A stretch of 40,032 bases of DNA from a virus: positions 1-40,032 of IMG/VR virus record IMGVR_UViG_3300025087_000177, one strand, 5' to 3'. Of the stretch, positions 8,169-40,032 are shown piece after piece (the first letter of the stretch is position 1; every line of letters starts with the position of its first letter). Position numbers and translations under genes: made by a program. A model generated the notes under the pieces. That model searched no databases. It was not told the origin of the DNA and was given only the letters and a program-made list of their open reading frames with translations.

Positions 8169-8211
8169 AATTTTTTTATTAGTTTTTTGTTTTTATTTTT
8201 TAGAAAAAACT
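8169..8211 (+). terminator. T-rich probable archaeal terminator after the capsid gene
   Basis: Several runs of five to seven T residues follow the capsid stop codon, the kind of U-tract at which archaeal RNA polymerase terminates. AGTTTTTT at 8181-8188 can also pair with AAAAAACT at 8204-8211. This may be a partial terminator that raises capsid transcript levels relative to downstream genes. Confidence 0.5.
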
Positions 8212-8213
8212 AG

Positions 8214-8259: not shown

Positions 8260-8286
8260 AAATAATTAAATAAAAAACGGAGAAAA

Positions 8287-8757: not shown

Positions 8758-8786
8758 AAGTAATCTAAACTGGAGAAAATAGAAAG

Positions 8787-9149: not shown

Positions 9150-9150
9150 A

Positions 9151-11964: not shown

Positions 11965-11980
11965 TTGAAAGGAGGTTAAA

Positions 11981-13009: not shown

Positions 13010-13024
13010 TTATAAGGAGGAAGT

Positions 13025-13264: not shown

Positions 13265-13413
13265 GTGAGTTTGAAAATAGATTAAGAATCTGCGAGTACT
13301 TTCACTGGGATCTTGAAGATATAAACAAGCTTACTATTCGAGAATATAATTTAACAATCAGGTATATAAATAAACAAATTAGAAAAATGAATAAAAAACA
13401 TGGCAGAAGGTGA
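13025..13413 (+). CDS. Tail assembly chaperone, long form by probable -1 frameshift (GT-like)
   Basis: The -1 frame, blocked by TGA at 13234-13236, is then open to TGA at 13411-13413 and encodes a sensible helical domain: PAEVSEFENRLRICEYFHWD then LEDINKLTIREYNLTIRYIN and a basic tail. This is the T-type extension seen in tail chaperones. The slip must fall in 13237-13262. The best site is GAT TTT CAG, where the Phe tRNA on TTT (13241-13243) can re-pair with TTT one base back (13240-13242), giving a product of about 129 residues. There is no canonical XXXYYYZ heptamer, so the exact site is uncertain. The extension overlaps the tape measure start by 14 bases. Confidence 0.65.
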
Positions 13414-14644: not shown

Positions 14645-16200
14645 TTCAAGCAAAATTTACAATTAATAATGTAGATTTTAGAAACTTTACATTTATGGAT
14701 ATTTCTAAATCTATGTCTGAATATGAAACAAGTTCAAGTTTCGTTATTCAATTAGATTCTCCATATGGAAGACATAAATCAGATTTTACTGTTGGAAATG
14801 AGATAACTATTTTTGCAGATAAAGATGCAAGTCCAACAACAAAAATATTTACTGGAATAATTGAAAAAGTAAGTTTTTGGGGACAAGAGAATTCACAATC
14901 TTGCATTATTTCTGGAAGAGATTATACAGCTAGACTACAAGATATTACTGTTCAGCCGATTGTTTATACAAATTCAGAAATAAGTACAATAGTAACAAAT
15001 ATAATTAATAATGAAATAAATGGAATAACTACAACAAACGTAGATGTTACTACAACGACTTTAACAAGAATAGCATTTAATCACCATTCTGTTTATGAGG
15101 CATTAAAACTTTTAGCTGAACTCGCCGGTTTTATATTTTATATAGATGAGAATAAGGATCTGCATTTTGAAAAAAGGCAAACAATTAGTTCTGGGCTAAT
15201 TATTAACAACACAAACATAATTAGAATGCCGTCATATAATACTACTAAAGAAGGAATGTTTAATTCAATTTGGGTATATGGAGATAAGCGAAAGGTTGGT
15301 GAACGAGAGATTTTAGTTGGTAATGGAGGAAGTGTTTTTACACTAGTCAGTCGCCCGCACGACACAGAAGTTCTTTACTTGGGCAGTATTCAGCGAGGAG
15401 GAGTTTATCAAATGAATATAATTCCTACTTCTGGTATTAGGTATCTTGTTAATTTCTATGATAGGCAATTAATATTTGTTTCTGGGACAGATTTGGGATA
15501 TGACGCAACACCTCCAAATGGAGGAAGCATTTTAATTAATTATAATAGAGATGTTCCAATAATAAAGTATGGCCAAGATTCATCAAGTATAGCAATGTAT
15601 GGCATGAAAGAAAAGATTATAGATGATAGATCAATAAATGATCCTAATACCGCTGAAAAAGTGCTTCAAATAGAGCTTCAAAAAGCAAATCCTTTCAGAG
15701 GAATAGAGGCAATAATTAAAGGATGGTTTACACTTAATCCTGGAGATACAGTGGATGTGGTATTAGATGATTTCAACTTAAATGAAACAGGAATTAGTAT
15801 TTTAGATATTAGCTATTCATTTAATAGACAAACACAGCAATCTGAACAAGTTATCAAAATAAGGCTAGATAAAAAGATAAAGGATATAACAGATGAGATT
15901 GCTGATATTAGAAGCAGGATCGATAAAATAGAGTCTCAAAACAGGCAAGCTTCAGATATACTACCAAGGCTTCAATTAGGTGTTGGAAGCATGTTAATTG
16001 TTGGAAGTTATTGGGCAATTTTGACTAGTTTTGTTACTGGAAGCCAATATCATTTATATGATACAAACTTTATTTCACCAATCAATCCATTTCACTTAGC
16101 TAGTGGAGAAAATCAAGGATATTTGGCTGGAAGTTATACTGGAAGTGCTCAAGCATTTACAGGTTTTGCTGTTCAACAAAGTGGAGGATATAATTACTAA
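14641..16200 (+). CDS. Tail hub/baseplate protein (gpD/gp27-like)
   Basis: A 519-residue protein overlapping the tape measure stop codon. Residues about 1-190 resemble the hub fold of gpD/gp27-like tail tip proteins: an early domain with VGNEITIFADKD, IFTGIIEKVSFWG and SCIISGRDYTARLQD, then SVYEALKLLAELAGFIFYID and DLHFEKRQ. Family proteins start the tail and carry the cell-puncturing or adhesion parts. A short coiled coil (RSRIDKIESQNRQASD, about 424-439) leads to a Gly/Ser/Tyr-rich C-terminal region, possibly an attachment domain for fibres. No lysozyme domain is visible. Confidence 0.8.
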   Translation: MIQAKFTINNVDFRNFTFMDISKSMSEYETSSSFVIQLDSPYGRHKSDFTVGNEITIFADKDASPTTKIFTGIIEKVSFWGQENSQSCIISGRDYTARLQDITVQPIVYTNSEISTIVTNIINNEINGITTTNVDVTTTTLTRIAFNHHSVYEALKLLAELAGFIFYIDENKDLHFEKRQTISSGLIINNTNIIRMPSYNTTKEGMFNSIWVYGDKRKVGEREILVGNGGSVFTLVSRPHDTEVLYLGSIQRGGVYQMNIIPTSGIRYLVNFYDRQLIFVSGTDLGYDATPPNGGSILINYNRDVPIIKYGQDSSSIAMYGMKEKIIDDRSINDPNTAEKVLQIELQKANPFRGIEAIIKGWFTLNPGDTVDVVLDDFNLNETGISILDISYSFNRQTQQSEQVIKIRLDKKIKDITDEIADIRSRIDKIESQNRQASDILPRLQLGVGSMLIVGSYWAILTSFVTGSQYHLYDTNFISPINPFHLASGENQGYLAGSYTGSAQAFTGFAVQQSGGYNY

Positions 16201-26857: not shown

Positions 26858-27346
26858 ATGGGAAAAAATTGGAATATTAAAGATACTTCAAAAATGAGCC
26901 ACCCTGCATGGAATAAAGGTAAAAAGAACCCAGAGTTATCTAAAAGACAAAAAGAAAATAATGTTTCTAAGAGGCCCGAAGTTAGAGAAAAAATGAAAAA
27001 AGCAAAAATAGAATATTATAAAAATGGGGGACATCCCCCAAATTATATTGATGGAAGTTCAAGAAATAGAAAGTATAGATTAAAAGAATGGATAGAAATA
27101 GCAAAGAAAATTTATGAAAGAGATCATTATACTTGCCAAATTTGTAATAAAAAAGGGGAATTATTAAATGCTCATCATATAATTCCTTGGGCAGGAAATC
27201 CAAATTTAATTTTTGATTTAAATAATTTAATTACCTTATGTGTTCCTTGTCATTCAAGAATTCATTTTATTTTAAATAATCCAAGAAAAAAGAAGCGATT
27301 TGGCGAGCTTCAGGGGGTGAAAAATGAGAATAGCAATCTTATCTGA
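26858..27346 (+). CDS. HNH homing-type endonuclease with NUMOD3-like repeats
   Basis: A 162-residue protein. The N-terminus carries NUMOD3-like DNA-binding segments (MSHPAWNKGKKNPEL and KRPEVREKMKKAKIEY). The C-terminus is an HNH nuclease: YTCQICNKKGELLNAHHI, an Asn in LNNLITLC and CHSRIHF. Such enzymes spread by cutting intron-less or gene-less alleles. The end of the gene overlaps the start of the following glycosyltransferase, whose reading frame is broken a few codons later; the two facts may be linked. Confidence 0.85.
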   Translation: MGKNWNIKDTSKMSHPAWNKGKKNPELSKRQKENNVSKRPEVREKMKKAKIEYYKNGGHPPNYIDGSSRNRKYRLKEWIEIAKKIYERDHYTCQICNKKGELLNAHHIIPWAGNPNLIFDLNNLITLCVPCHSRIHFILNNPRKKKRFGELQGVKNENSNLI

Positions 27347-28560
27347 CAGTCCGTTTCTGCCGACGGGCTATTCGTAATTCAAATCAAGCAAAACTACTTT
27401 CTAAATTTTTAAAAGAAAAAGGACATGAAATTCATCATCTCGCAAATGCATATCAAGGACAAACAATTTCTTATGCAAGATTAGAAGATGGAACAGAATT
27501 TAATTATAAGATATATGGCCAAATGTCTCCTTATTTTAATCAAGAAATGAGCCAACTTCTTAAAACAATTAAACCAGATGTTTTTTTAATCTTGCTTGAC
27601 ACATTTATGCTCTTTCCTTGGTTCTTAAATATAGATACTAGCCCATCAAAAACCATCTTTTGGTTTCCTTCCGATGGGGGGGGAGGAATGCCTATTGGTT
27701 GCGAGAATATATTGAGAAAAGTAGATGTTCCCGTAGCAATGGCAAGATTTGGACAAAAACAATGTTTAGATAATTATAATATTAAAACAGAATACATCCC
27801 ACACGGAACAGAGCCAGATAGATTTTATAAACTTTCAGATGATGATAAAATGAAGTTAAGAACAAATTGGGGATTATTAAATAATTTTGTTGTTGGGTGT
27901 GTTGCAAGAAATCAACCAAGAAAAATGTTAGATAGAATGATTAAAAGTTTTGCTTTAATAGCTAAACAAATCCCAGAAGCAATTTTACTATGCCATTTAG
28001 ATCCAAAAGATCCAGCAGCGATATTTGATATATATGAAATGTCTAAACGATTTGATATAGAAAACAGGTTAAGATTTACAGGAATGTCTGCACTTAAAGG
28101 ATTTGATTGGTCTAAAATGAATGAAGTATATAATTTAATGGATGTATTCTTTTTATCAACAAGCGGAGAAGGATTTGGAATACCAATAATAGAAGCAATG
28201 AGTTCAGAAGTTCCAATTATCGCAACAGATTACACTACTACTGAAGAAATAGTAAAGGAAACAAAGGCTGGATTTGGAATTAAGTTATCTGGAACAGAAC
28301 AAACAAATTATTTTGATAAAAACAATAAGGAATATGATCAATTAATTGCCAATGGAACATTAACCGGAAGCTGGATGGTTGAAAGAGGACTGATGGACAT
28401 AAACGATGCTGCTGAAAAGATAGTTTTATTATATCAAAATACAGAATTAAGAAAGCAAATGGGACAAAATGGAAGAAAGGCAGTTTTAGAAAAATATGAT
28501 TTTAATAAACAAATTGGTCCGGCATTTGAAAGACTAATGGAGAAATTATGCAATTCATAA
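27324..28560 (+). CDS. GT4-family glycosyltransferase, reading frame interrupted near its start
   Basis: The coding sequence begins at ATG 27324 (MRIAILSDSPFLPTGY) but hits TAA at 27375. From about 27373 the +1 frame continues the same protein (RNSNQAKLLSKFLKEK, then GHEIHHLAN) through ATG 27523 to the stop at 28560. Skipping one base, such as T27372, restores a GT-B fold protein of about 411 residues. The catalytic region has TSGEGFGIPIIEAMSSE (EX7E motif of GT4) and PHGTEPDRF. It transfers a sugar from a nucleotide donor. A truncated product from 27523 would lack half the N-terminal domain. Possible causes are a true mutation, +1 frameshifting, or a sequencing error. Confidence 0.8.
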
Positions 28561-28802
28561 TTGAGTGGATAATAGACTATTGTTTAGTAATGTTTGCTAT
28601 GTGTATAGACAATATTTTTTGGATTTCAGCAAGCCCAGAATATCCTTTATTTAAAGAAAATAAACCAATAACAATAGACGGAAAAACATATAGTACTAGA
28701 ATAGAATATATTTTTAAATATAGAATTTGGTCTGTTTTAACTCATTGGAGAGACATAATCCCAGCAATATTTACAAGTTTAATACTTGCAGTTTTAACAT
28801 GA
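28548..28802 (+). CDS. Small membrane protein
   Basis: An 84-residue protein with hydrophobic segments at both ends (FIIEWIIDYCLVMFAMCID, about 3-21, and IIPAIFTSLILAVLT at the end), separated by a loop with charged residues. Both termini are probably in or across the membrane. It overlaps the glycosyltransferase stop and the radical SAM start, so it belongs to the island. It could anchor an enzyme or move a lipid-linked sugar, but there is no family match I can name. Confidence 0.55.
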   Translation: MQFIIEWIIDYCLVMFAMCIDNIFWISASPEYPLFKENKPITIDGKTYSTRIEYIFKYRIWSVLTHWRDIIPAIFTSLILAVLT

Positions 28803-30022
28803 TAGAAAACATACTTTTAACAGCTTGTAGAAGTCCATTTTTAGATAATGATAGAATTTATCCTCCATTAGGAATACTTTATTTACACCAAGCAATAAAA
28901 GAAAATTATCCAGATCTTAAAGTATGGGTAACCGATGAGCCAAGCCCAAGACATTTAATCACGGCGGATTTGGTAGGAATAAGCATAATGACTCCTCAAC
29001 GAGAAGAAGCTAAAAGATTATTAAAAGAAGCGCAACACTATAACTATAATTCTATTAAAATTGCTGGAGGCCCACATGTTAAAAATTATATAAAAAGTAT
29101 GATGGGTGAAGATTGGAATTATTTAATTCCAAATGATGGAATAAGAGCTATAAATAAAATAATAGAAAACCCCCAACATAGTAAATTAGTTATTAATGAT
29201 TTTATAAAACCCAAAGAATACCAAAAATTATGGAGAAAGCCGAATAGATTAGACAACAAAGATTTTTTAAACAAATTTAATTATAAACTTAATAATATTA
29301 ATTCTACAACAATGTTAACCTCACAAGGATGTTCAGAACATTGCACTTTTTGCGAAGAAGCTATAAGCCCAATAAGATGGACGCCACTTGATATAGTTAA
29401 AGAAGAACTAAATGACATCGTCAGTTTAGGATATAAAGGAGTTTATATATTTGATGATATTTTTGCGCTATCTGAAAAATATACACAGCCAATAACAGCA
29501 GAATTATATAAACTGGGATTAATTTATCGGTGTAATGGACAAGCTAGAAGATTTAACAAAGATTTTGCAAAATTATTGGGGAGTACCGGTTGTGTAGAGA
29601 TTGCATTTGGAGCAGAATCAGGCAGCCAAAAAATATTAGACACAGTAAGAAAGAAGTGCACAGTTGCCCAAAACTATAATTTTGTTAAACTCTCAAAAAA
29701 AGAAGGAATGAAAGTAAAAGCATTTTTAATGATTGGGCTTCCAGGAGAAACAAGAGAAACAATTAAAGAAACAGAAGCGTTTATTAAAAATTCTGGAATA
29801 GATGATTTTCAATTAGCTATTTATTACCCATACAAAGGAACACAAATAAGAGAAGAAATGGACAATAATAAAGATATAGATTTATTTTTCTTAGGAGAGG
29901 GTTTAGGTGCGTACGGCCAAAAAAATAATCAATCAGAAGCAGTAATTAGAACTAATCAGCTATCACAAGAAGATTTAATAAACGAGAGAGATAGATTAAT
30001 AACTCAATATAAGATAAAATGA
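28799..30022 (+). CDS. B12-binding-type radical SAM protein
   Basis: A 407-residue protein counted from the ATG at 28799 (ATGA overlap with the membrane protein gene). The N-terminal part (about 1-130) resembles a cobalamin-binding Rossmann domain (DLVGISIMTPQREEAK). The radical SAM core has the cluster motif CSEHCTFC (Cys178, Cys182, Cys185), GAESGSQKIL and MIGLPGETRET. Family enzymes methylate or rearrange inactive carbon atoms. In a sugar island this could methylate a sugar or its lipid carrier. The usual DXHXXG cobalamin His is not evident, so cofactor use is uncertain. Confidence 0.8.
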   Translation: MIENILLTACRSPFLDNDRIYPPLGILYLHQAIKENYPDLKVWVTDEPSPRHLITADLVGISIMTPQREEAKRLLKEAQHYNYNSIKIAGGPHVKNYIKSMMGEDWNYLIPNDGIRAINKIIENPQHSKLVINDFIKPKEYQKLWRKPNRLDNKDFLNKFNYKLNNINSTTMLTSQGCSEHCTFCEEAISPIRWTPLDIVKEELNDIVSLGYKGVYIFDDIFALSEKYTQPITAELYKLGLIYRCNGQARRFNKDFAKLLGSTGCVEIAFGAESGSQKILDTVRKKCTVAQNYNFVKLSKKEGMKVKAFLMIGLPGETRETIKETEAFIKNSGIDDFQLAIYYPYKGTQIREEMDNNKDIDLFFLGEGLGAYGQKNNQSEAVIRTNQLSQEDLINERDRLITQYKIK

Positions 30023-31281
30023 ATAAATTAATTGTTTGCATAATGGGGGATAGGTGCAGCAAATTTTTAGATATGTGTTTTAAAAGTGTTTTAGAAGCAG
30101 ATAAAATAATCTTTTGCTGGGGTGAAGAAGATTTATTTACATTAACAAAATATCAAGAATGGAAAGAAAAATATCTAGATAAATTTGAATTAATACAAAA
30201 TAAATTTTGGCAAGACGATTTAACAATGAATGGCAAACAGCGAAATTTCTATCTTAATTATTTAAAGGAAAATTATCCAAATGATTGGGCACTTTGTTTA
30301 GATGCCGATGAAGTAGTTGATGATGAGGGAATAAATAAAATAAAAGAATTTATTAAAACTGCAGAAACGGGAGTTTATTCAGTAAGAATGGAGCACTTTA
30401 TTCAGGACTTGGGCCATGTGGATGCAGCCCAGCAAGTTCACTATGTATTAAATAGATTATTTAAAATAAGTGAGGCAGAAAGCTATCCCGAAGTAGAACA
30501 TCCAACATTAATTCCAAAAGGAGAAGCTGCTGGATTAACAGATTGCACGGCAATATGGCACTTAGCTTATGTTCCTAATTTATGGAGCATAAAAGATAAA
30601 TATGAAAATCATTTAAAAAAATCAAACATCCATACTCCCGAATTTCTTAAATCATGGTATATGGCGCATATTATAGGAACTTACCCCAAAAAACAAATTA
30701 ATTTAATCGATACTCCAAAAGTAATTTTAGATGAATTTAAAATAGATAAAGAAGAAATTTACTTTCAAAACAGAAAAATAGAATTAAAACATCCAATCCA
30801 AGTTAAACAATGGAATGATTATTTTAAACCAAAATCAGTTTTAGATTTAGGCTGCGGCAGGGGGTGTTATTTATACTTCTGGGAGTGGTTCGCGCCAAAT
30901 TCCAATGGAATAGAAATAAGCAAATATGCCGTGAAAAATCAATTTACAAAAGATAGAATATTTTTAGGGGATATTTCAGATGGGTGTTCATGGGACGCCA
31001 TAGGTACAGATTGGGATTTAATAACTTCAATTGATGTATTAGAGCATCTGACAGACGAGCAATTGCAAGATACTTTAATATTAATGAGTCAATATGGGAA
31101 AAGATTTTTATTTTCAATTCCTTTTGTTGGAGATTACAATCTTTCAGATGATAAAACACACAAGCAGTTTAAAACCAAAGAAGAATGGATTAATTTAATA
31201 GAGTCTTTTGGAATCAAAATAAAACCAGCACCAGATAATTGGTTATTTAAAGAACAGATTTTAATAGGAATTAAAGAATAA
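30019..31281 (+). CDS. Family-2-type glycosyltransferase fused to a class I methyltransferase
   Basis: A 420-residue bifunctional protein. Residues about 1-225 are a GT-A glycosyltransferase with a DXD-like LDADE motif (94-98) and the segments CIMGDRCSKF and MNGKQRNFYLNY. Residues about 268-420 form a SAM methyltransferase with VLDLGCGRG near 274-282 and SIDVLEHL. It could add a sugar and methylate it or the acceptor. The ATG overlaps the previous stop codon. The fusion is the feature to note; separate enzymes of both types occur elsewhere in the island. Confidence 0.8.
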   Translation: MNKLIVCIMGDRCSKFLDMCFKSVLEADKIIFCWGEEDLFTLTKYQEWKEKYLDKFELIQNKFWQDDLTMNGKQRNFYLNYLKENYPNDWALCLDADEVVDDEGINKIKEFIKTAETGVYSVRMEHFIQDLGHVDAAQQVHYVLNRLFKISEAESYPEVEHPTLIPKGEAAGLTDCTAIWHLAYVPNLWSIKDKYENHLKKSNIHTPEFLKSWYMAHIIGTYPKKQINLIDTPKVILDEFKIDKEEIYFQNRKIELKHPIQVKQWNDYFKPKSVLDLGCGRGCYLYFWEWFAPNSNGIEISKYAVKNQFTKDRIFLGDISDGCSWDAIGTDWDLITSIDVLEHLTDEQLQDTLILMSQYGKRFLFSIPFVGDYNLSDDKTHKQFKTKEEWINLIESFGIKIKPAPDNWLFKEQILIGIKE

Positions 31282-31722
31282 ATGAATAGAAAATACTTGC
31301 CGGAATTAGCAGAACTCGTAGATAGATTAAGCATAGTTAATTTAAAATCTATTAAATTAGGATGTTTAGATAAAGAAAAAAAAGAAGCATATGAAGCAGA
31401 AGCAAGACTAATTATGTACGACATCAATCTAATTATGCAGGAAAATAAAGATAAAGTTGAAGATTGGGGCAAGCTGATTAGAGGAATTCAAATGGATATG
31501 ATTGCAAATGAGGTTATCTGGGTAAATGAAACTATGGCCAGACAAGCAAAAGACAATCAAAATTACTTATTGCCATTTACTCATTCAGTTAATGCAGTTA
31601 GAATGTTTGGCGGAAATATGATAGCCAGCCAATTAGGAGAAAGAAAAGACTTAAATTCAGATAGATTAAATAGTGAAATTTGCATCCAAAGAGGTTATAA
31701 TTTTTCAGGGTGCTTCACATAA
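31282..31722 (+). CDS. Helical hypothetical protein of glycan islands
   Basis: A 146-residue helical protein with LAELVDRLSIVNLKSIKLG near the start, a pattern I associate with small helical proteins near sugar-modification genes (DUF4254-like), although this match is weak. The remainder is Asn/Met/Ala-rich helix. It begins one base after the fusion gene and ends just before a new promoter. Function unknown. Confidence 0.5.
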   Translation: MNRKYLPELAELVDRLSIVNLKSIKLGCLDKEKKEAYEAEARLIMYDINLIMQENKDKVEDWGKLIRGIQMDMIANEVIWVNETMARQAKDNQNYLLPFTHSVNAVRMFGGNMIASQLGERKDLNSDRLNSEICIQRGYNFSGCFT

Positions 31723-31735
31723 AAACATTTATAAA
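31722..31735 (+). promoter_or_regulatory. Promoter for a leaderless transcript starting at 31759
   Basis: AAAACA precedes TTTATAAA at 31728-31735. The ATG at 31759 lies near the expected start of transcription, so the mRNA would be leaderless. This gives the sugar-nucleotide genes their own transcription unit inside the island. Confidence 0.75.
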
Positions 31736-31758
31736 TATAATTTAATTAATTAATTAAG

Positions 31759-32397
31759 ATGATTAAAGAGGATTTGATTAATTTTGAAAAAGAAGTGATT
31801 GAACAATGGAAAAAAGGAGAAACTTATGGTCCGGTTCATCTATCTGGCGGAAATGAAGAACAATTACCTAAAATATTTAAAAATATAAAAGACAATGATT
31901 GGGTTTTTACAACACACAGATCACACTACCACGCTTTACTAAAAAGTAAAGATAAAAAATGGTTAATGAATGATATTATAGTTAAAGCAAATTCAAGCCA
32001 CATTAATTCTAAAAAGTATAAAATATTTAGTTCAGCAATTGTTGGAGGCAACTTATCTATCGCTTTAGGAACAGCTTTGGCAATTAAATTAAAAAAAGGA
32101 ACAGAAAAGGTTTGGTGTTTTACCGGAGATATGGCAAGTGAAATGGGACAATTTTTTGAAGTAATTAAATATGCATTTTCAGAAGAATTGCCAATTATGT
32201 TTGTCATTGAAAATAACAGTTTAGGATGCGAAACTCCCACAGGAAAAGTTTGGAAAAAATGTTTATGTTATGAAAATATTTATCCAAATGTTATTAGATA
32301 TAATTATAAAAGAATTTATCCGCACTGCGGAACTGGAGATTGGCTGACATTTAAAAAAAAGTTTAAATCAACTGGAGATTATAATGCCTATAAATAA
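31759..32397 (+). CDS. Thiamine-diphosphate enzyme, E1-alpha/transketolase N-terminal-like subunit (short)
   Basis: A 212-residue protein resembling the alpha subunit of 2-oxoacid dehydrogenase E1 or the N-terminal half of transketolase. It has HRSHYHALL (53-61), a GDM...ENN thiamine-diphosphate motif (Gly123, Asp124 and Asn152-Asn153; normally GDG), and YAFSEELPIMFVIENN between. The cofactor-binding motif spacing is near normal. It is about 90-100 residues shorter than usual at the C-terminus, and its partner lies directly downstream. In sugar islands such enzymes move two-carbon units onto keto-sugars. The substrate is unknown. Confidence 0.8.
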   Translation: MIKEDLINFEKEVIEQWKKGETYGPVHLSGGNEEQLPKIFKNIKDNDWVFTTHRSHYHALLKSKDKKWLMNDIIVKANSSHINSKKYKIFSSAIVGGNLSIALGTALAIKLKKGTEKVWCFTGDMASEMGQFFEVIKYAFSEELPIMFVIENNSLGCETPTGKVWKKCLCYENIYPNVIRYNYKRIYPHCGTGDWLTFKKKFKSTGDYNAYK

Positions 32398-32935
32398 TAA
32401 AAAATATCAGGAAAATGTAATTAAAGCAATGGAATTGCTTGGAAAAGACAAGCAAACTATTTTCTTAGGACAAACCATAGTTTATGGTGGTTCTCCAATG
32501 TTTAAGAGCTGCGAGAAAGTTTCAAGTGAAAAAAAAATAGAAGTGCCTGTTTTTGAGAACACTCAAATGGGAATAAGTACAGGATTAGCATTAGAAGGAT
32601 TTATTCCAATAAGTATATTTCCAAGAATAGATTTTTTAATTTGTGCGGCAGATCAATTAGTTAATCACTTAGATAAAGTAGAAGAAATGTCTAAAGGAGA
32701 ATTTAAGCCCGGAATAATAATTAGAACACAAATAGGCAATAAATATCCCTTATATCCAGGAATACAACACTGCCAAGACCACACTAAAGGATTAAAGGCA
32801 ATGTTAAAACACACTTTAGTGATTAAAATAAAAAATGAAAAAGAAGTTATGTCTAATTATAAAATAGCATTAAAGAGAGCTAAACAAGGAAAATCTACTT
32901 TATTAATAGAAGTTCCAACAGGAGCATTTTTATGA
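32384..32935 (+). CDS. Thiamine-diphosphate enzyme, E1-beta/transketolase central-like subunit (short)
   Basis: A 183-residue protein covering only the pyrimidine-binding domain. FENTQMGISTGLALEGF (57-73) contains Glu58, at the place of the glutamate that activates thiamine diphosphate, and ADQLVNHLDK follows. The C-terminal swivel domain of E1-beta or transketolase (over 100 residues) is missing. It overlaps the alpha gene by 14 bases, so the two form a heteromer. Known two-gene transketolases keep the third domain; this pair is among the smallest possible. Confidence 0.8.
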   Translation: MPINNKKYQENVIKAMELLGKDKQTIFLGQTIVYGGSPMFKSCEKVSSEKKIEVPVFENTQMGISTGLALEGFIPISIFPRIDFLICAADQLVNHLDKVEEMSKGEFKPGIIIRTQIGNKYPLYPGIQHCQDHTKGLKAMLKHTLVIKIKNEKEVMSNYKIALKRAKQGKSTLLIEVPTGAFL

Positions 32936-33330
32936 GAGGAGTAATTATTCGCAAAGCAAAAATAATCAATGAAGATGAACGCAGAAAGATAATCAGTATT
33001 TTAAATGGAGAAATCGGAGTAAGAGATATTCATATTTTAGAAATGAAAAAAGGAGATAAAAATGAAAATGGTTTTATTAAGATGCCTTTAGGAAATCATA
33101 AACATTGGTATCCTGAAGTATGCTTTGTATATAAGGGAAAATGTAAATATTGGCTCAAAAACAAAGAAGATGAAACAATGGAGTATGATTTAGAAGAAGG
33201 TGATATTATGTTTAGAGCACCAGAAGTTGTACACACATGTATGTGTACAGAAGATACTATTTTAATTGATGGAGCAAGTGAAGGCTGGATTGAGGACCAA
33301 TGGAATCATGTTCAGGAGAAACTACAATGA
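32932..33330 (+). CDS. Cupin-fold protein (sugar-modifying or metal-binding)
   Basis: A 132-residue cupin with a metal-binding pattern His56, His58, Glu62 and His101 (GNHKHWYPEV and APEVVHT), near the two conserved cupin motifs. Cupins in nucleotide-sugar pathways isomerise or epimerise keto-sugars, or act as sugar 3,4-ketoisomerases. The start overlaps the TPP beta gene by four bases, and the end overlaps the truncated epimerase. The role could be catalysis or binding. Confidence 0.7.
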   Translation: MRGVIIRKAKIINEDERRKIISILNGEIGVRDIHILEMKKGDKNENGFIKMPLGNHKHWYPEVCFVYKGKCKYWLKNKEDETMEYDLEEGDIMFRAPEVVHTCMCTEDTILIDGASEGWIEDQWNHVQEKLQ

Positions 33331-33476
33331 AAATAATGGTATTTGGGGCGGGTGGTTTTGTTGCATCCTATTTAATAAAAGAGTGCTTAAAAAATGGAGA
33401 TGAAGTTATTATTCTAAACTCAGAGAAAGTTGTAAATACTAAAAAGGAGATTAATAAGATATGGCAACATATTTGA
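33327..33476 (+). pseudogene. Truncated NAD(P)-binding epimerase remnant
   Basis: A 49-codon frame starting on the cupin stop (ATGA). It encodes only the first half of a Rossmann fold: MKIMVFGAGGFVASYLIKEC, then a strand VIIL. The following gene begins with a closely similar segment (TGAGGFVASYLI). The two stretches align also at DNA level around 33343 and 33482. It may be left from an ancestral tandem duplication or from recombination between related epimerase genes. Its end overlaps the start of the full gene by 16 bases. Confidence 0.65.
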
Positions 33477-34543
33477 TTACTGGGGCTGGAGGATTTGTGG
33501 CTTCTTATTTAATAGATTTATTATTAAGCGAGAAACACAAAGTAATAGGAACAATAAGATGGCAGGAAGACTTACATAGATTAGATAAGTTTAAAGATAA
33601 TAAAGATTTAATATTAGTTGAAGTTGAGCTTACTGATTTAAGTTCTGTTATAAGATGTATTAATAAACATCGTCCTGAAATAATTTCACATTTGGCTGCA
33701 CAGTCGTGGGTTACAAGTTCTATGGACAATCCTATTTATACCATGAAAAACAACGTAGAAAGTACTCTAAACATACTAGAAGCAGTTAGATTAATAAACG
33801 ATATTCAGAATGCTGATTGGCCGTGCTATGAAAATCCAGATAGTAATCCACATGTTGAACATTATTGTTGTGGTAAAGTAAAATATAACCCACTAATACA
33901 CATATGTAGTAGTTCAGAATTTTATGGCAAAGTAGAAAGAGACGACTTACCCATTACAGAAAACCATAAAGCTAATCCTGGAAATATATATGGAGCGAGT
34001 AAAGTAACAGGAGATTTCCTTGCACAAATTTATGAAAAATATTACGATTTAAGAATATTAATTACTAGAATGTTTACCCACTTTGGCGTAGGAAGAACTA
34101 TGATGAGTGCAGAGAATTACTATACAAAGGAGATAGCTAGATTAGAAAATGAAACTTGTTATCCCGATAGTTTACCTATTGATAAATATGTAATTAAGAT
34201 AGGAGATGAATTGGCTATGAATTCACTTAGAACATGGGCAGATGTTAGAGATGCTGTTAAGAATTATTATACTTTATTCAAAAATCAAAAGACCGGCATA
34301 TATAACGTAAGTGGAGAAACAATCAAAACAATTCAAGAAGTATTAGATTATTTAATAAGTATAAGTAATCTAGACAAAACTAAATTAAAATTTATAGCAA
34401 GTCCAGAATTCATTAGAAAAATAAACGTAGACAAACAAATAGTAGACATAACTAAATTTAAACAAGAGAATGAATGGTCAAATGAAATAACACTTGAACA
34501 AGCACTGACAGATTTATTAAATTATTGGAGAAAAAATGTTTAA
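33461..34543 (+). CDS. NAD-dependent dehydratase, GDP-mannose 4,6-dehydratase-like, with an insert
   Basis: A 360-residue extended SDR with the nucleotide-binding motif GAGGFVAS (8-15), SSSEFYG (150-156) containing the Ser-Glu of the dehydratase triad, and YGASK (177-181) with catalytic Tyr177 and Lys181. Most like GDP-mannose 4,6-dehydratase, it would convert a nucleotide hexose to its 4-keto-6-deoxy form. An insert of about 26 residues (117-142) has Cys and His (Cys122, His131, His134, Cys136, Cys137) and may bind zinc. The 4-keto product is a plausible acceptor for the TPP enzyme. Confidence 0.85.
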   Translation: MATYLITGAGGFVASYLIDLLLSEKHKVIGTIRWQEDLHRLDKFKDNKDLILVEVELTDLSSVIRCINKHRPEIISHLAAQSWVTSSMDNPIYTMKNNVESTLNILEAVRLINDIQNADWPCYENPDSNPHVEHYCCGKVKYNPLIHICSSSEFYGKVERDDLPITENHKANPGNIYGASKVTGDFLAQIYEKYYDLRILITRMFTHFGVGRTMMSAENYYTKEIARLENETCYPDSLPIDKYVIKIGDELAMNSLRTWADVRDAVKNYYTLFKNQKTGIYNVSGETIKTIQEVLDYLISISNLDKTKLKFIASPEFIRKINVDKQIVDITKFKQENEWSNEITLEQALTDLLNYWRKNV

Positions 34544-34718
34544 AAAAAATAATTACTTTTTTGAGTTTTCAGGCGAGTATATACCAAAAGAATACATAAT
34601 AGAATGTATATATGCATCTAACGGAAGTTTGTGTGAGAAAGAATGCGAATTATTTAATCGATGCTGGCCAAACAAATCTAAATTAGAGGAAAAAATAATT
34701 GATGAAGCAACAGATTGA
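34536..34718 (+). CDS. Small cysteine-containing hypothetical protein
   Basis: A 60-residue protein with four cysteines in CIYASNGSLCEKECELFNRC (24-43). The spacing suggests a metal site (C-X8-C-X3-C-X5-C) but no known domain. It overlaps the dehydratase gene by eight bases and the next epimerase by about 17. It may bind a metal or support an enzyme of the island. Confidence 0.5.
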   Translation: MFKKNNYFFEFSGEYIPKEYIIECIYASNGSLCEKECELFNRCWPNKSKLEEKIIDEATD

Positions 34719-35598
34719 TTGGAAAAATAAAAAAGTGCTTGTAACGGGTTCAGGGGGTATGATTGGTAAAGAATTAGTTATTTTATTGAAAGAATTAAGT
34801 GCAGAAGTATTTGAATTTGACATAAAAAGGACATGGACAAGCGATAATTATGATCACGAGTCCATAAACATAATAGACAAACAACTAACAGAAGAAATAT
34901 TTAATCTTTTTAGACCTGAGATAACATTCTCTTTATTTGGCATAAAAGGTAATCCTAAAATGACCAAAGAAAGACCAGCAGATTTTGTTATACCCATGCT
35001 ACAAGGAGATACAAACACAATAGAAGCATGTCAAAAACATGGAGTTGAGAGAATGCTTTATACCAGTTCGATTGCAGTAGAAAATACAGAAACAGATAAA
35101 TATCCCGCTTGGGCAAAGAAAACAGCTGAAACATTAATAGAAGCAATGAGAATACAATATCCCAAAGGAACAAAATATTGTATTGTAAGACCAAGCAACG
35201 TATATGGAAGATTTGATAATTTTAATAATTCAAATAGCATGGTTGTTACTTCTCTAATTTCAAAAGCATTAAAAAACAAAAAATTAATATTAGATAAGAA
35301 AGGAGCAGAACAAATTAGAGACATAATAAACGCTAAAGATGTAGCGAGAGGAATGATTAAATGTATGGAAGAAATGCCAGAAAATCCAGTTAATTTATGC
35401 TCTGGAAAAGAAATAAAAATAAAAGACATTGCAGAAGAAATATCAAAACAATTAAATATCAAAATAGAATATAAAAATTTAAATTTAATTCTTGGACCCA
35501 ATAAGAAAATAATGAAAAATCCATATATTAAATCAGAAATTAGTTTAAGTGAAGGAATAGAAGAGGTAATTGAATATGTTAAAGACCAGAAGAGATAA
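34702..35598 (+). CDS. NAD-dependent epimerase/dehydratase
   Basis: A 298-residue extended SDR. The nucleotide-binding motif is TGSGGMIGKE (near 16-25) and TSSIAVEN holds the likely catalytic Ser. The Tyr-X3-Lys motif is irregular: YPAWAKK puts Tyr five residues, not four, before the first Lys. PSNVYGRFDNF is the usual substrate-binding segment. I chose ATG 34702; an adjacent TTG at 34699 is in frame. It would act on nucleotide-sugars, possibly as an epimerase or reductase. The irregular Tyr could mean altered chemistry or only a loop shift. Confidence 0.75.
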   Translation: MKQQIDWKNKKVLVTGSGGMIGKELVILLKELSAEVFEFDIKRTWTSDNYDHESINIIDKQLTEEIFNLFRPEITFSLFGIKGNPKMTKERPADFVIPMLQGDTNTIEACQKHGVERMLYTSSIAVENTETDKYPAWAKKTAETLIEAMRIQYPKGTKYCIVRPSNVYGRFDNFNNSNSMVVTSLISKALKNKKLILDKKGAEQIRDIINAKDVARGMIKCMEEMPENPVNLCSGKEIKIKDIAEEISKQLNIKIEYKNLNLILGPNKKIMKNPYIKSEISLSEGIEEVIEYVKDQKR

Positions 35599-35893
35599 AA
35601 TAGACAAACATAAGAAATTAAAAGAATGGAGTAAATTAGTCAGACAAAGAGACAACAATAAATGTGTAATATGTCAGACAACTAAATACATACACACACA
35701 TCACCTATTTCCAAAAGAAGCAAAGATGTATCATTATTTAAGATTTGATATAGATAATGGTATAACACTCTGTGCAAGACACCATAAATATAGTTATCAA
35801 ATTAGTCCCCATAAAAATCCAATGATATTTGTAGGTTGGTTAATTCACAATCGTAATGAACAAATAGATAAATTATGGGAGAAAATAAAATAA
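35576..35893 (+). CDS. HNH endonuclease
   Basis: A 105-residue HNH nuclease: CVICQ, then YIHTHHLFP, NGITLC and ARHHK, the order of the metal-binding and catalytic residues. It overlaps the epimerase by about 23 bases. A TTG at 35570 is in frame, but the ATG at 35576 is better. In islands such as this, free-standing HNH genes often move as homing elements. There are two others in the window. Confidence 0.75.
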   Translation: MLKTRRDKIDKHKKLKEWSKLVRQRDNNKCVICQTTKYIHTHHLFPKEAKMYHYLRFDIDNGITLCARHHKYSYQISPHKNPMIFVGWLIHNRNEQIDKLWEKIK

Positions 35894-35894
35894 A

Positions 35895-36587
35895 ATGAGT
35901 ACACACAAATTAATTATTGGATGCCCAGTAAAAAACGATGTTGAGTCATTAAAAGAAATGATAAAAAGCTTGTTAAATTCAACATTTAGTTATGATGAAA
36001 TAGTGTTTGTTTTAGGGAAAAATATAACCAATGAAGCCAATGAGTTTTGTTATAATTTACAAAGAAGGTATAATAAAATTAAAATAATAAACGCAGAAAC
36101 AACAACTTCCCTACATGCATATAATATTTTATTTAAACTAGCTAAAGACTTAAAATCAGATTTAATATTGACTCAAACAGATGTTATTTTTCCTAAATTA
36201 TATAGGCGAGATTGGATTCAGTCAATAAAAGCATTATCTATTCTTTCGGATTGCGGGGCAGTTATACCTCTCAATGGGGGCGGAATAAGCGGGCCAGATT
36301 ATGTTGATGGATTACATTGGATTGGTGGATGGTGCACTTATTTGCCTTATAGAACACTAGAAAAAATATCTGGATTCGACGAAAATTTTCCTAATGGATT
36401 TGGAGTAGATATAGACTTAACTTATCAAATCCTAAATTTAGGATTAAAAATATATCAGACAAATTATTGGGTTGATCACCATATGATGAACGAACGAGCA
36501 CACGACAATAATCCAGAATCAGAAAAAATGAAAAAAGAATCAGCAGAATACTTTAGAAAAAAATGGAAAATTGGAGAATATAAATGA
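35895..36587 (+). CDS. Family 2-like glycosyltransferase
   Basis: A 230-residue GT-A protein. The start LIIGCPVKNDVESLKEMIKS is a typical GT2 opening. DLILTQTDVIF (about 90-100) is a variant DXD. FDENFPNGFGVDIDLTYQI (about 167-185) matches the family acceptor-site motif with its acidic residues, and a His pair (WVDHHMM) follows. It is likely to add sugars to a growing glycan. It begins one base after the HNH gene. Confidence 0.8.
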   Translation: MSTHKLIIGCPVKNDVESLKEMIKSLLNSTFSYDEIVFVLGKNITNEANEFCYNLQRRYNKIKIINAETTTSLHAYNILFKLAKDLKSDLILTQTDVIFPKLYRRDWIQSIKALSILSDCGAVIPLNGGGISGPDYVDGLHWIGGWCTYLPYRTLEKISGFDENFPNGFGVDIDLTYQILNLGLKIYQTNYWVDHHMMNERAHDNNPESEKMKKESAEYFRKKWKIGEYK

Positions 36588-37447
36588 AAGAATGTGTAAT
36601 TTTAATCAATACCTGCAACAGAGCAACAGAATGCTGTTTGTTACTTCAAAGTTTGCGAACTCAAAAATATCAAGATTTTGATGTATTTATTTTAGAAGAC
36701 AAATCTAATATTCCTTTGCCAAACTTTCATTTTTATAATTGTTTAATTACCAGAATGAAACTAGAAAATCACAAAGTATTTTATCGAGAAACACCATTTA
36801 ATTATGGAGTAAGCAAAGCAAGGCAAGAAATAGTTAATTGGGCAAGAGAATCAAATTATAAATTATTTGCTAGATTGGATGACGATGTAATTATTGAATC
36901 AGATTTTTTAAGTAGATTAAAAAAAATAATAAACAAAGGTTATGATTTAGCTAGTGGAGTAACTGCACCAATGATGCTTTCAACGATTAAACGAGACCCA
37001 AAATACTTAAACGGAATAATAAATAGAGTTATTTTAGATGATAATGGAAACTATGTGATGAATGGAGATGATTGCGGAATACAATATAATAAATCTGTTA
37101 TTCTACCGGCACATCATTTCAGAAGTTCCGCAATGTATAAATCAGAAATACACAATAAAGTTAATTATACACCAACTAAATTAAGCAAGCATGGTTTTAG
37201 AGAAGAACAAATTTTCAGTTATAAGCTATTAATGAATGGATATAAAATTGGGGTAGATACTCAAGCAATGGCGTGGCATCAAATTACTCCCAGTGGAGGA
37301 GAGCGGTCATTCGGAGACACGATTGGATTAAATCAACAAGTTTTAGAAGAATTTACTAAAGAATATAAAGAACAATTAAATAAATTATTTATTAAATATA
37401 ATTTTCCAACTAAACAAGAACTAATGAAACAAACAAATTTAAGATGA
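36584..37447 (+). CDS. Family 2 glycosyltransferase
   Basis: A 287-residue GT-A enzyme: opening ECVILINTCNRATECCLLLQ, LFARLDDDVII (about 96-106) as the DXD metal and nucleotide-sugar motif, and FREEQIFSYKLLMNGYKI near 205-222 as the catalytic-base region. It probably transfers a hexose. The start overlaps the previous stop codon. An extra C-terminal helix of about 35 residues is seen. Confidence 0.85.
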   Translation: MKECVILINTCNRATECCLLLQSLRTQKYQDFDVFILEDKSNIPLPNFHFYNCLITRMKLENHKVFYRETPFNYGVSKARQEIVNWARESNYKLFARLDDDVIIESDFLSRLKKIINKGYDLASGVTAPMMLSTIKRDPKYLNGIINRVILDDNGNYVMNGDDCGIQYNKSVILPAHHFRSSAMYKSEIHNKVNYTPTKLSKHGFREEQIFSYKLLMNGYKIGVDTQAMAWHQITPSGGERSFGDTIGLNQQVLEEFTKEYKEQLNKLFIKYNFPTKQELMKQTNLR

Positions 37448-38517
37448 CACAAATAAATATAATCGGTACGATATTTGGTACCTCAGGATATGATTCTCAT
37501 ACCAGGGGGCTCGCCAATGCACTTAATAAGCTCATAGATGTAAGATTATCTGTTCCAAGACCAACTGATTGGGAAAAACAAATTAATGATTCAGAGCTTA
37601 AGATGTTGAAGAGAGAGTCAAAAGAAGAAATTAACTTAATTATTGCTTTACCGCACCAATGGAAACTTTGTACTAATAATTATAGAAACTGGGCATATTT
37701 AATTTGGGAAGGAGATAAAATACCAGAATCATGGATAGAAGATTTATTAAATCCAGATATAGAAAAAATATTTATTCCAAGTAACCATGTTAAAAAAGCA
37801 ATTTTAAATACTACAAAAGATAAAATAATACAAAAAAAATTAAAGATAGTTCCACATGGGGTAGATTTAACAAAATTTTATTCTATGGAAAAACCTAAAA
37901 GATATGATGTCTTTTTGGCAAATAAGGGATTTAGAAACTTAGAAGATAGAGGAGGAATACAATATTTAATTAAGGCATTTATAGAAGAGTTTAAAAAAGA
38001 TGAAGCAGAATTAATTATTAAAATAAATCCCGCCTATGGAATACCAGATTTAAATAAGATAATGCAAGAATTAGGATATACAGAAAATTCTCCAAAAATA
38101 ACTTTTATTGGAAATGCTGTTCCACAAGAAGATCTTGTTAAGTTTTACAATCAAGGAAATATATTTGTAAGTTCAACCAGAGCAGAAGCATTTAATATTC
38201 CTTGTTTAGAAGCAATGGCTTGCGGACTTCCAATTATTACGACTAACTTTGGCGGCCAGACAGATTATTGCAATAAAAAAAATAGTTGGATAATTTCTGG
38301 AGAATTAACAGAAGTAAAGCATGAAATTGAATACGAAGGAATAAAGTGGTTAACACCAGATATAAAGCAATTAAGAAAAGCAATGAGGGATGCAATAGAT
38401 AATCCATTTACAATCATAAATAAATCACAAGAATCATTAAAAACAGCACAAAAATATACTTGGGATAACAGTGCAAAGGAGATACTAAAATGTCTTGGAC
38501 AGACACAAAAAGCGTAG
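37444..38517 (+). CDS. GT4-family glycosyltransferase (GT-B)
   Basis: A 357-residue GT-B enzyme: GTSGYDSHTRGLANALN is the N-terminal loop that binds acceptor; VPHGVDLTKFY is the linker; VSSTRAEAFNIPCLEAMACG (about 239-258) contains the EX7E motif. The family transfers mannose, glucose or N-acetyl sugars from nucleotide donors. It starts with an overlap of four bases and ends by overlapping the methyltransferase. Confidence 0.9.
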   Translation: MTQINIIGTIFGTSGYDSHTRGLANALNKLIDVRLSVPRPTDWEKQINDSELKMLKRESKEEINLIIALPHQWKLCTNNYRNWAYLIWEGDKIPESWIEDLLNPDIEKIFIPSNHVKKAILNTTKDKIIQKKLKIVPHGVDLTKFYSMEKPKRYDVFLANKGFRNLEDRGGIQYLIKAFIEEFKKDEAELIIKINPAYGIPDLNKIMQELGYTENSPKITFIGNAVPQEDLVKFYNQGNIFVSSTRAEAFNIPCLEAMACGLPIITTNFGGQTDYCNKKNSWIISGELTEVKHEIEYEGIKWLTPDIKQLRKAMRDAIDNPFTIINKSQESLKTAQKYTWDNSAKEILKCLGQTQKA

Positions 38518-39203
38518 AAGCAATCAAATATTTAAGAGATCGGTTTCAAGTAAAAGAATTTATTGAAACAGGAACTTTTAAAGGAATAAACGCAAGACGG
38601 CACTCTAAGAATTTTGAAAAGATAACTACTTGTGAAATTAAACAAGAATATTTTAATGATGCAACAAACAATCTTCAAGGATATTTAAATATTAAACAGG
38701 TTTTAGGTGAAAGTCCAATATTCTTAAAAAAAATAATAAATGAATATAAAAAAGAAAAAAGGAAGGATATTATAATTTTTTATTTAGATGCTCATTTTTA
38801 CAATCCAGAACTTCCCCTGTGTAAGAGGTTTGTTGTATTAGATGAATTAAATTCTCTTAAGAATTTTAAAAAAGGAATTATTATTATACATGATTTTGAT
38901 AATGGATTGGGTCACATAATTTATGATGGTATTCCCTTAGGAATGAATATTTTAAAAGAACCGCTTTTAAAAGTAAATAAAAAATTTTATTTCTATACAA
39001 ATACACTAGAGTCATGTAAAATAGTCAAGCCAAAGGTTGAAGAAATAGAAAGGGCCGGATTGATTGCTGATAAAGACACCCTAGAAAACTTAGAGTATGT
39101 GTGGGCATCTCAAATAAAAGCATTTAGAGGAATACTTTATTGCCTTACAGAAAAATTAAACGAAGACGAATTAATTAAATTAGGTTTAAAAATATGGGAA
39201 TAG
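38490..39203 (+). CDS. SAM-dependent methyltransferase-like protein
   Basis: A 237-residue protein with FIETGTFKGINARRHSK (24-40) as the SAM-binding loop, ITTCEIKQEYFN as the second acidic strand, FYLDAHFYNPELPL (about 92-105) and a IIIIHDFDN strand near 130. This pattern occurs in class I O-methyltransferases found in glycan islands. It may methylate a sugar hydroxyl. The start overlaps the preceding GT4 gene by about 28 bases, and the end overlaps the next gene. Confidence 0.7.
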   Translation: MSWTDTKSVEAIKYLRDRFQVKEFIETGTFKGINARRHSKNFEKITTCEIKQEYFNDATNNLQGYLNIKQVLGESPIFLKKIINEYKKEKRKDIIIFYLDAHFYNPELPLCKRFVVLDELNSLKNFKKGIIIIHDFDNGLGHIIYDGIPLGMNILKEPLLKVNKKFYFYTNTLESCKIVKPKVEEIERAGLIADKDTLENLEYVWASQIKAFRGILYCLTEKLNEDELIKLGLKIWE

Positions 39204-39427
39204 AAAAGAATACAAAAACCAAAGAGGAATTAGAAAGAGAGATTCATAAAAAAATTACTATACTGATAGACTTAACCAAAGAAATTCCAATAGAAGGAAG
39301 AGAAAAAAATATAAAAATAATCAACGATATGGCTGAAGATTATCATGCTCTTTTCGGAAAATATTATATTTATAGACAAACCCCAAAAAAAGGAAACTAT
39401 GGAAAAGGAGAATACGGTGACTGGTGA
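39194..39427 (+). CDS. Small helical hypothetical protein
   Basis: A 77-residue protein: a charged coiled-coil-like first half (KTKEELEREIHKKITILIDL) and a Tyr/Gly-rich tail. No family. It overlaps the methyltransferase by ten bases and its stop lies just after the probable start of the SDR, so it belongs to the same operon. Confidence 0.45.
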   Translation: MGIEKNTKTKEELEREIHKKITILIDLTKEIPIEGREKNIKIINDMAEDYHALFGKYYIYRQTPKKGNYGKGEYGDW

Positions 39428-40032
39428 AATAGCAATTATTACCGGCAACAGCCGAGGAATTGGCAGATCGATAAAAGGAAAACTAAGAGAATATGGAGTA
39501 ATAGTCCCGGACATCAGTACCACAGATGGCTATGATTTAGTTGAAAACGGAATTGAAAAATTAATCGAAGTGTTTCCAACAACAGATATTTTAATTAATA
39601 ATGTTGGTGGTGGTGGAAGATGGGGCGAAGACATAGATCCATGGGAATTTGATGAATGGGACAAAATCTATGAAAAGAATGCTGGAATTGCCAGAAAACT
39701 AACGACACACTACCTACCAGGAATGATTGCTCAGGGGTGGGGAAGGATAATCACAATAGCATCTATCTATGGAACAGAGTCTGGAGGACTTCCATGGTTT
39801 ACAATAGCCAAAGCATCACAAATAGCTTTGAACAAAGAATTAGCCAGAAAATGCTATCCCGGAATAACAATTAATACTATTAGTCCGGGTCCAGTCAAGG
39901 ATGCAGGAAAAAGAATAGATGAGGGTATTGAATCAATCGACATAGCAAACCTAGCGTTATTTTTATGTTCAGATTTAGCCAAAAATATTTCTGGACAAAA
40001 TATTGTGATAGATAAAGGTAAGTACACTAGAT
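39417..40032 (+). CDS. Short-chain dehydrogenase, Tyr-to-Phe variant (partial, cut by window end)
   Basis: The frame is open to the window end (205 codons). GTG 39417 has GGAG seven bases upstream; ATG 39399 is an alternative in-frame start. Motifs of classical SDRs are present: TGNSRGIG (9-16), NNVG (61-64), catalytic Ser116 in ASIYG, and PGPV. But the place of the catalytic Tyr has Phe128 (FTIAK, with Lys132). It may therefore be catalytically altered, binding or regulating rather than reducing a sugar. C-terminal SGQNIVIDKG matches the usual SDR end. Confidence 0.85.
   Translation, partial: MTGEIAIITGNSRGIGRSIKGKLREYGVIVPDISTTDGYDLVENGIEKLIEVFPTTDILINNVGGGGRWGEDIDPWEFDEWDKIYEKNAGIARKLTTHYLPGMIAQGWGRIITIASIYGTESGGLPWFTIAKASQIALNKELARKCYPGITINTISPGPVKDAGKRIDEGIESIDIANLALFLCSDLAKNISGQNIVIDKGKYTR

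Follow-up and report, generated by a model that had tools for sequence, protein, structure and literature searches.

A candidate glycan assembly locus with a conserved frame of five glycosyltransferases in putative tailed viruses of DPANN archaea

Introduction

Among the closest described systems is that of the chlorovirus PBCV-1, which encodes soluble viral glycosyltransferases (GTs), a GT-methyltransferase fusion (A064R) and a viral GDP-mannose 4,6-dehydratase, and which shows a conserved five-sugar core along with frame-shifted glycosyltransferase alleles among antigenic variants (PMC5408694, PMC7826918). Glycosyltransferase and deoxysugar genes are also located beside the structural genes in the host recognition clusters of pelagimyophages, where a change of the host surface has been proposed (PMC7029224), and groundwater viruses have been reported to be rich in nucleotide-sugar genes (PMC10980836). 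Here we describe a carbohydrate island in the IMG/VR record IMGVR_UViG_3300025087_000177, the whole of which (40,032 bases) was analyzed and is referred to below as the window. The island begins at 27,324, reaches the end of the contig and takes up about one third of the DNA of this tailed virus. The host is probably a DPANN archaeon belonging to the Pacearchaeota phylum.

The resemblance to PBCV-1 is one of gene content, since the island likewise encodes soluble glycosyltransferases including a GT-methyltransferase fusion. PBCV-1 differs in being a eukaryotic giant virus with scattered genes, a proven glycan structure and a proven capsid acceptor, and the available text of the two sources reports no pair of thiamine pyrophosphate (TPP) enzymes such as that present here (PMC5408694, PMC7826918). 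The pelagimyophage clusters belong to viruses with bacterial hosts and form a hypervariable region, and a fixed order of glycosyltransferases is not described in the available part of that source (PMC7029224). In the cyanophages P-TIM68 and S-SM2 (Kyanoviridae), a TPP enzyme of PHROG 34187, 36-41% identical to the TPPa protein of the window, is encoded amid consecutive nucleotide-sugar and glycosyltransferase genes, but these phages are 190-kb myoviruses with bacterial hosts, in which the TPP enzyme is annotated as a single fused open reading frame (ORF) with heptose-type partners, and the frame of five glycosyltransferases was not seen in them. AviB1/AviB2, Pau11/Pau12 and KbDH are alpha/beta pairs resembling the E1 component of pyruvate dehydrogenase (PDH) and are found beside genes for the deoxygenation of nucleoside diphosphate (NDP) sugars. 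Their subunits are full-length (325/345 aa in Pau11/12), as compared with 212/183 aa here, and branching activity has been shown only for the bacterial enzymes (PMC4425429, PMC12247030).

A conserved frame of five glycosyltransferases

Five glycosyltransferase genes form the frame of the island, as follows.

27324..28560, + strand: GT4a, glycosyltransferase of the GT-B type that opens the frame (Pfam Glycos_transf_1, 5e-20); main ORF 27523-28560
30019..31281, + strand: GT2-MT, GT2-like glycosyltransferase fused to an S-adenosylmethionine (SAM) methyltransferase (weak GT2 match, 0.009, with the DAD motif present; Methyltransf_23, 1e-5; PHROG methyltransferase match of the C-terminal half, 1e-11)
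35895..36587, + strand: GT2b, glycosyltransferase conserved in its order (GT2, about 5e-4 to 6e-4, below the Pfam cut-off)
36584..37447, + strand: GT2c, glycosyltransferase (Glycos_transf_2, 1.3e-9; 37-63% identity in relatives)
37444..38517, + strand: GT4b, glycosyltransferase, last gene of the frame (Glyco_trans_1_4, 3.4e-16)

The relatives of the window were gathered by performing scans with the terminase, TPPb, capsid and GT2-MT proteins. GT2-MT is carried by 24 virus contigs, and wherever the flanks are present in these contigs, the order GT4a, GT2-MT, GT2b (which is not found in all of them), GT2c and GT4b is unvarying. Since homologous ORFs showing 36-77% identity share one order across independent virus contigs, and since the third codon positions have diverged more than the first and second ones, the conservation of the island goes beyond what chance would give. 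GT4b was present in 14 of the 27 records in the group defined by the capsid protein; the other 13 are short records in which it was not seen, one of which starts at the short-chain dehydrogenase/reductase (SDR) gene of the island. In the window, GT4a is frame-broken: the ATG at 27324 is followed by a TAA stop at 27375-27377, which reflects either genuine allelic variation or a fault of the assembly. Intact, full-length copies showing 48-61% identity to that of the window are present in L085, L090, L091 and L092 (the L and G numbers are our own labels). The GT4b gene of L101 (G402:C1:4680-5786) contains an in-frame TGA.

In a preliminary description of this stretch, a carbohydrate island was proposed with at least five glycosyltransferases, methyltransferase domains, a radical SAM protein, a TPP enzyme pair, a cupin, a 4,6-dehydratase, an epimerase and an SDR. 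All these enzyme classes were recovered in a tailed-virus contig on the basis of Pfam, PHROG and fold matches, and five glycosyltransferases were confirmed, the first of which (GT4a) is broken at its 5' end. The gene order was sought in other viruses and in archaeal hosts, as suggested there: the order of the frame was found in 24 virus contigs and the sugar module, without the frame, in an archaeal chromosome. Two ways in which the proposal might have failed had also been named. That the region might be host chromosome joined by misassembly, or a host contamination, is ruled out, since independent contigs show this gene order with the same virion genes next to it; nor are the genes broken in all the relatives, GT4a being intact in four of them.

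The exchangeable interior of the island

The other genes of the island, together with the endonuclease gene at its edge, are the following.

26858 (start): HNH endonuclease at the edge of the island; a second HNH gene lies inside the island, at 35570
28548..28802, + strand: small protein of 84 aa, without an obvious role in a sugar pathway
28799..30022, + strand: B12-binding-type radical SAM protein with the cluster motif CSEHCTFC (Radical_SAM, 2.5e-16; B12-binding, 1.3e-6, below cut-off)
31282..31722, + strand: g31282, conserved all-helical protein of 146 aa, partner of the TPP pair (AlphaFold model, pLDDT 88, helical bundle)
31759..32397, + strand: TPPa, E1-alpha-like half of the TPP enzyme (PP domain), 212 aa (E1_dh, 2.4e-20; PHROG 34187, 1.5e-45)
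32384..32935, + strand: TPPb, E1-beta-like half, pyrimidine domain only, 183 aa (PHROG 34187, 1.1e-32; E1-beta matches in the PDB)
32932..33330, + strand: cupin (Cupin_2, 7.4e-5, below cut-off; 28-42% identity in relatives)
33327..33476, + strand: ORF of 49 aa similar to no more than the N-terminal part of an NDP-sugar epimerase (from its translation), overlapping the start of the dehydratase gene; probably a remnant
33461..34543, + strand: NDP-sugar 4,6-dehydratase of the GDP-sugar type (GDP_Man_Dehyd, 7e-51)
34702..35598, + strand: extended-SDR "epimerase", nearest to GDP-fucose synthase, lacking the catalytic Tyr (Epimerase, 2e-28; Fcl, 6e-21)
35570..35893, + strand: HNH endonuclease, probably a homing insert outside the pathway (HNH_2, 4.8e-6); such inserts vary between relatives
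38490..39203, + strand: MT2, class I SAM methyltransferase in the variable part (without a Pfam match; model pLDDT 83, fold match to SAM methyltransferases, 2.5e-7)
39345..40031, + strand: classical SDR cut by the contig end (adh_short_C2, 7e-24), with an invariant Phe in place of the catalytic Tyr

The run TPPa-TPPb-cupin-dehydratase is present in the window, L004, L090, L091, L092, G382 (L209), G401 (L104) and L330, and part of it in L101, the contig of which begins at TPPb, while it is absent from G381, G383, G384 and many others. The viruses without it carry other radical SAM, methyltransferase or cytidylyltransferase genes, or only epimerase genes. Wherever the cupin gene occurs in the relatives, it is located downstream of TPPb. 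An orthologue of the radical SAM protein (49% identity) was found only in the record of L004, the radical SAM proteins of the other relatives being diverged (24-32%). The small protein encoded at 28548-28802 has moved, since a homologue showing 64% identity is located in the tail-gene region of the record of L004 (L086:16927-17187). The g31282 gene adjoins the TPP pair in archaeal viruses, in large phages and in the archaeal chromosome G313; its product gave no Pfam match up to E 10 and no match in a fold search of the PDB at E<=0.001.

In the records L004, G382 and L092, endonuclease-like or unrelated ORFs lie between TPPa and TPPb (L004:540-1109, L300:4443-4847 and L092:7238-8176, respectively), as if the seam between these two genes were a preferred insertion point. 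Since the HNH and other inserts differ in kind and place between the relatives, they were treated as passengers. Protein distances followed those of the capsid protein in the case of GT4b (r 0.71, p 0.0005, 15 viruses), GT2-MT (0.50, p 0.016), GT4a (0.41, p 0.03) and GT2c (0.36, p 0.013), whereas those of GT2b did not (-0.04); nor was the capsid tracked by TPPa (0.09), TPPb (-0.06) or the dehydratase (0.11), which are carried by only seven viruses. The distances of TPPa and TPPb follow each other (0.87). This comparison of distances supports different histories for the frame and the sugar module.

Residues of the dehydratase and the TPP pair

The protein encoded at 33461-34543 carries the motifs of GDP-sugar 4,6-dehydratases, namely (S/T)-x-E, YxxxK and the Rossmann glycine, and its residues S151/S152/E153, Y177 and K181 are invariant in nine aligned rows. 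Its best PDB match (7us5, E 1e-49) is the GDP-D-glycero-D-manno-heptose 4,6-dehydratase of C. jejuni, with which it shares the S-S-E...YxxxK residues. As a difference, an RmlC-type C3/C5 epimerase was not recognised in the window. The TPP pair is related to PDH E1 alpha and beta, shortened to 212 and 183 residues, and fused versions of it exist in phages (PHROG 34187). In TPPa, D124 and N153 are invariant in ten rows, GDM replacing the GDG of the thiamine diphosphate-Mg motif GD-x(27-28)-N that marks PDH-E1-type (alphaKADH2) enzymes. In TPPb, the invariant E58 is presumed to be the catalytic Glu, its position having been matched to that of E1-beta by eye.

Archaeal host and cellular copies of the module

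TATA-like motifs are concentrated at -30 to -26 in the upstream regions of the virus group (38, as compared with 7-29 in other 5-bp bins), as they are in an archaeal chromosome used as a control (32 vs. 0-7); such a box lies about 31 bp upstream of TPPa. Three near-identical promoter-like stretches, ctatataaacaaa(t/a)aatcaatttattta, occur at about 3088-3148, 5779-5839 and 16571-16631, in front of the virion genes starting at 3148, 5839 and 16631. When the 84,980 species of the genome_contigs collection were scanned with the capsid protein, the only relative found was in a Candidatus Pacearchaeota metagenome-assembled genome (MAG) containing two viral contigs, the second of which carries the glycosyltransferase frame. 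No cellular gene was recognised beside them, and their presence in the MAG amounts to co-binning. One viral contig of this MAG contains ORFs judged by eye to be QueE-like and QueD-like (L310:3258-4670), which suggests 7-deazaguanine DNA modification.

Six of the 371 genomes of the Pacearchaeota phylum contain a close TPPb. One of these six, the archaeon G313, carries a run of genes encoding a methyltransferase (MT2), an SDR, a radical SAM protein, an epimerase, TPPa, TPPb, a cupin, a NUDIX protein, a dehydratase and g31282, the products of which are 27-59% identical to the viral proteins. This locus differs from the viral ones in the NUDIX gene inside the run and in its cellular setting, a 163-kb contig also holding ribosomal-protein operons and tRNA genes, and no viral frame glycosyltransferases were recognised in it. 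A 45% identical copy of MT2 lies beside an SDR gene in the archaeal chromosome L285. In a tree based on TPPa and TPPb, the chromosomal copy of G313 was grouped with five viral copies (100/99), while GT2c and GT2-MT were found in only one of the 371 genomes, on a viral contig. It follows that the sugar module moves between virus and cell, and that the glycosyltransferases sampled appear to be viral and virus-specific. A second, diverged TPP pair was observed in chromosomes of the same phylum (L286, L288, L289 and L290), often beside radical SAM and NUDIX-type genes. Scans with a single TPP alpha sequence yielded only two distant contigs, the beta gene and alignments being more effective.

The promoters, the co-binned MAG and the chromosomal copy of the module indicate that the host is probably a DPANN archaeon of the Pacearchaeota phylum. 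A Bacteroidota host, to which the best named hits of the terminase (Flavobacterium phage 11b) might point, is disfavoured by the same three observations.

Function and target of the predicted glycan

We propose, at about an even chance of being right, that the island is a virus-encoded glycan assembly locus of DPANN-archaeal tailed viruses with a virion protein as the likeliest acceptor. The five soluble glycosyltransferases would build an oligosaccharide in the host cytosol from the nucleotide sugars of the host, and the exchangeable genes located between them would make or modify one special sugar. The GDP-type dehydratase would yield a 4-keto-6-deoxy sugar, the TPP pair would most likely add a two-carbon (C2) unit at the keto group, giving a branched-chain sugar, and the cupin, the SDR-like proteins and the methyltransferases would complete it. 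The oligosaccharide would most likely be attached to a virion protein in the cytosol, as in chloroviruses. The enzyme families, the gene order, the viral setting, the promoters of archaeal type and the module common to virus and archaeal chromosome are observations, whereas the nature of the sugar, the TPP reaction and the acceptor are deduced. The solubility of the island enzymes, none of which has a convincing transmembrane segment, the absence of GT2c and GT2-MT from the host-phylum chromosomes sampled and the GT-methyltransferase fusion resembling that of PBCV-1 all favour a target on the virion. The view expressed in the preliminary description that the island is a complete route from a nucleotide sugar to an attached glycan could not be maintained: sugar-nucleotidyltransferases, initiating transferases, flippases, polymerases and oligosaccharyltransferases are all missing from the enzymes recognised in it.

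The glycan might instead remodel the host surface, where an altered lipid-linked or S-layer glycan would block superinfection or the adsorption of released virions to debris. This is the usual proposal in the case of phage gene sets of the lipopolysaccharide type (PMC7029224); the rapid swapping of the interior module would fit an escape from receptors, and the sugar module is homologous to a host-phylum chromosomal locus lying near other glycosyltransferases. Unlike gtr-type seroconversion cassettes with their membrane flippase and membrane glycosyltransferase, the island nevertheless lacks a flippase, an initiating transferase, a ligase and any membrane protein, and no relatives of GT2c and GT2-MT, the two frame glycosyltransferases tested, were found in the host chromosomes sampled. 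We therefore rank host-surface remodelling below a virion target and regard it as rather unlikely. Glycosylation of the viral DNA, in which sugars would be placed on hypermodified bases and help to evade restriction, might be suspected in view of the two DNA methylases of the virus and of the QueE/QueD-like proteins noted by eye in a relative, but among the genes recognised in the window there is none for base hydroxylation and none resembling thymidylate synthase. To our knowledge, five glycosyltransferases and a dedicated deoxysugar module exceed the sets involved in DNA glycosylation, and this explanation seems highly improbable. Equally improbable is the idea that the genes are degenerating cargo, taken from a host glycan locus and now being lost. 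The broken GT4a, the SDR fragment at 33327-33476, the homing inserts and the loss of the catalytic Tyr in two proteins are what such decay might leave behind, but the Tyr replacements are common to all the aligned copies and hence old and conserved, and the other ORFs are intact, show 36-77% identity and have diverged mostly at third codon positions; the idea is thus largely refuted by the conservation across independent contigs.

As regards the chemistry, PDH-E1-like alpha/beta pairs attach a C2 unit from pyruvate to keto-sugars in the avilamycin, paulomycin, aldgamycin and kibdelomycin pathways (PMC4425429, PMC12247030), and because of these transfers in antibiotic-sugar pathways, the addition of a C2 branch to a 4-keto sugar is tentatively proposed here by analogy. 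The TPP pair might otherwise be a transketolase-like or heptose enzyme and yield, in place of a C2-branched sugar, a GDP-6-deoxy-heptose or some rearranged sugar, an alternative that concerns the chemistry alone and fits either target. The closest solved relative of the dehydratase is indeed the GDP-heptose enzyme 7us5, the TPP enzyme of cyanophages and large phages lies beside phosphoheptose isomerase, kinase and nucleotidyltransferase genes, and L091 has two cytidylyltransferase-like ORFs. The sequences of the pair are PDH-E1-like, however, and not transketolase-like, and neither a heptose isomerase nor a heptose kinase was recognised in the window, so that a heptose product is considered unlikely.

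Several observations weigh against the function, host and chemistry proposed here. No glycan or virion has been observed, the GT4a of the window is frame-broken, and some frames show no clear GT2b. The existence of a cellular homologue of the sugar module is just as compatible with a product resembling a sugar of the host surface. The link with the host rests on co-binning, promoters and shared genes, and when the first 20 kb of the window were compared with the 371 phylum genomes in a spacer-like search, only short AT-rich similarities and the known relative were obtained. TPPb lacks the third (transketolase C-terminal) domain of E1-beta, its matches covering the pyrimidine domain only, and since the TPP pair is also found beside transketolases and heptose genes in phages, another reaction is possible. 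The "epimerase" lacks the catalytic Tyr and with it the YxxxK motif of GDP-L-fucose synthases: W137-A-K139 is invariant and the residue four positions before the Lys is Pro or Ala in 7/7 rows. The SDR shows FxxxK instead of YxxxK, F152 and K156 being invariant in six rows, including the archaeal copy. As the catalytic Tyr has been replaced in all the aligned copies, the reactions of these two proteins are uncertain and the reduction steps may not proceed as named.

Novelty and meaning

The earlier suggestion that the combination of genes is new holds only in part. The set consisting of the TPP pair, cupin, dehydratase, unknown protein, methyltransferase and SDR also occurs in an archaeal chromosome, TPP enzymes are found in cyanophage sugar islands, and viral glycan loci are known. 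Literature searches on the glycosyltransferases of DPANN viruses yielded nothing on this locus, and within the literature searched, a fixed frame of five glycosyltransferases with exchangeable modules in putative DPANN viruses, as well as the miniature TPP pair with its g31282 partner, appears to be new.

Little is known of the viruses that infect DPANN archaea, hosts whose genomes are very small. The share of about one third that glycan synthesis takes of the DNA of a 40-kb virus suggests that the contest between such viruses and their hosts is fought largely over surface glycans, and the locus perhaps allows such viruses to change their own glycan coat or the surface of the host. A more speculative idea, to which we attach a low probability, is that of a built-in "serotype" system in which the frame would be inherited vertically and the modules exchanged with host chromosomes, giving each virus a different particle glycan, in the present case one for which a miniature TPP enzyme supplies a C-branched sugar. 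A frame with a swappable module predicts that viruses sharing the frame and differing in the module carry related glycans differing in one residue. The locus also provides a family of miniature TPP enzymes with a conserved partner, g31282, linked in archaea, archaeal viruses and phages.

Viral setting of the island

The window has no terminal repeats, and scans for Rfam families and tRNAs gave no matches in it. Two features lie at its left end.

148..1350, + strand: ParB-domain DNA methylase (N6_N4_Mtase, 3e-28; ParB_N); in relatives, flanks the island on its right together with the terminase (synteny)
1705..16200, + strand: Caudoviricetes virion module with terminase, portal-MuF, protease, HK97-type capsid, neck and tail genes (Pfam, PHROGs)

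The terminase, portal, HK97-type capsid and tail genes place the virus in the Caudoviricetes. The region from 17 to 26 kb contains small genes, a metallophosphatase-like gene and a Dcm-type methylase gene, two DNA methylases being encoded in the window. Since the island is located directly upstream of the ParB-methylase and terminase genes in L002, L003, L004, L091, L092, L101, L191, L217, L223, L226, L245 and others, the right and left ends of the window are probably neighbours in the genome map, a circular adjacency suggested by the gene order of the relatives. In G401 (the record of L104; L301, L303), the virion module has the opposite orientation with respect to the glycan island, both being intact.

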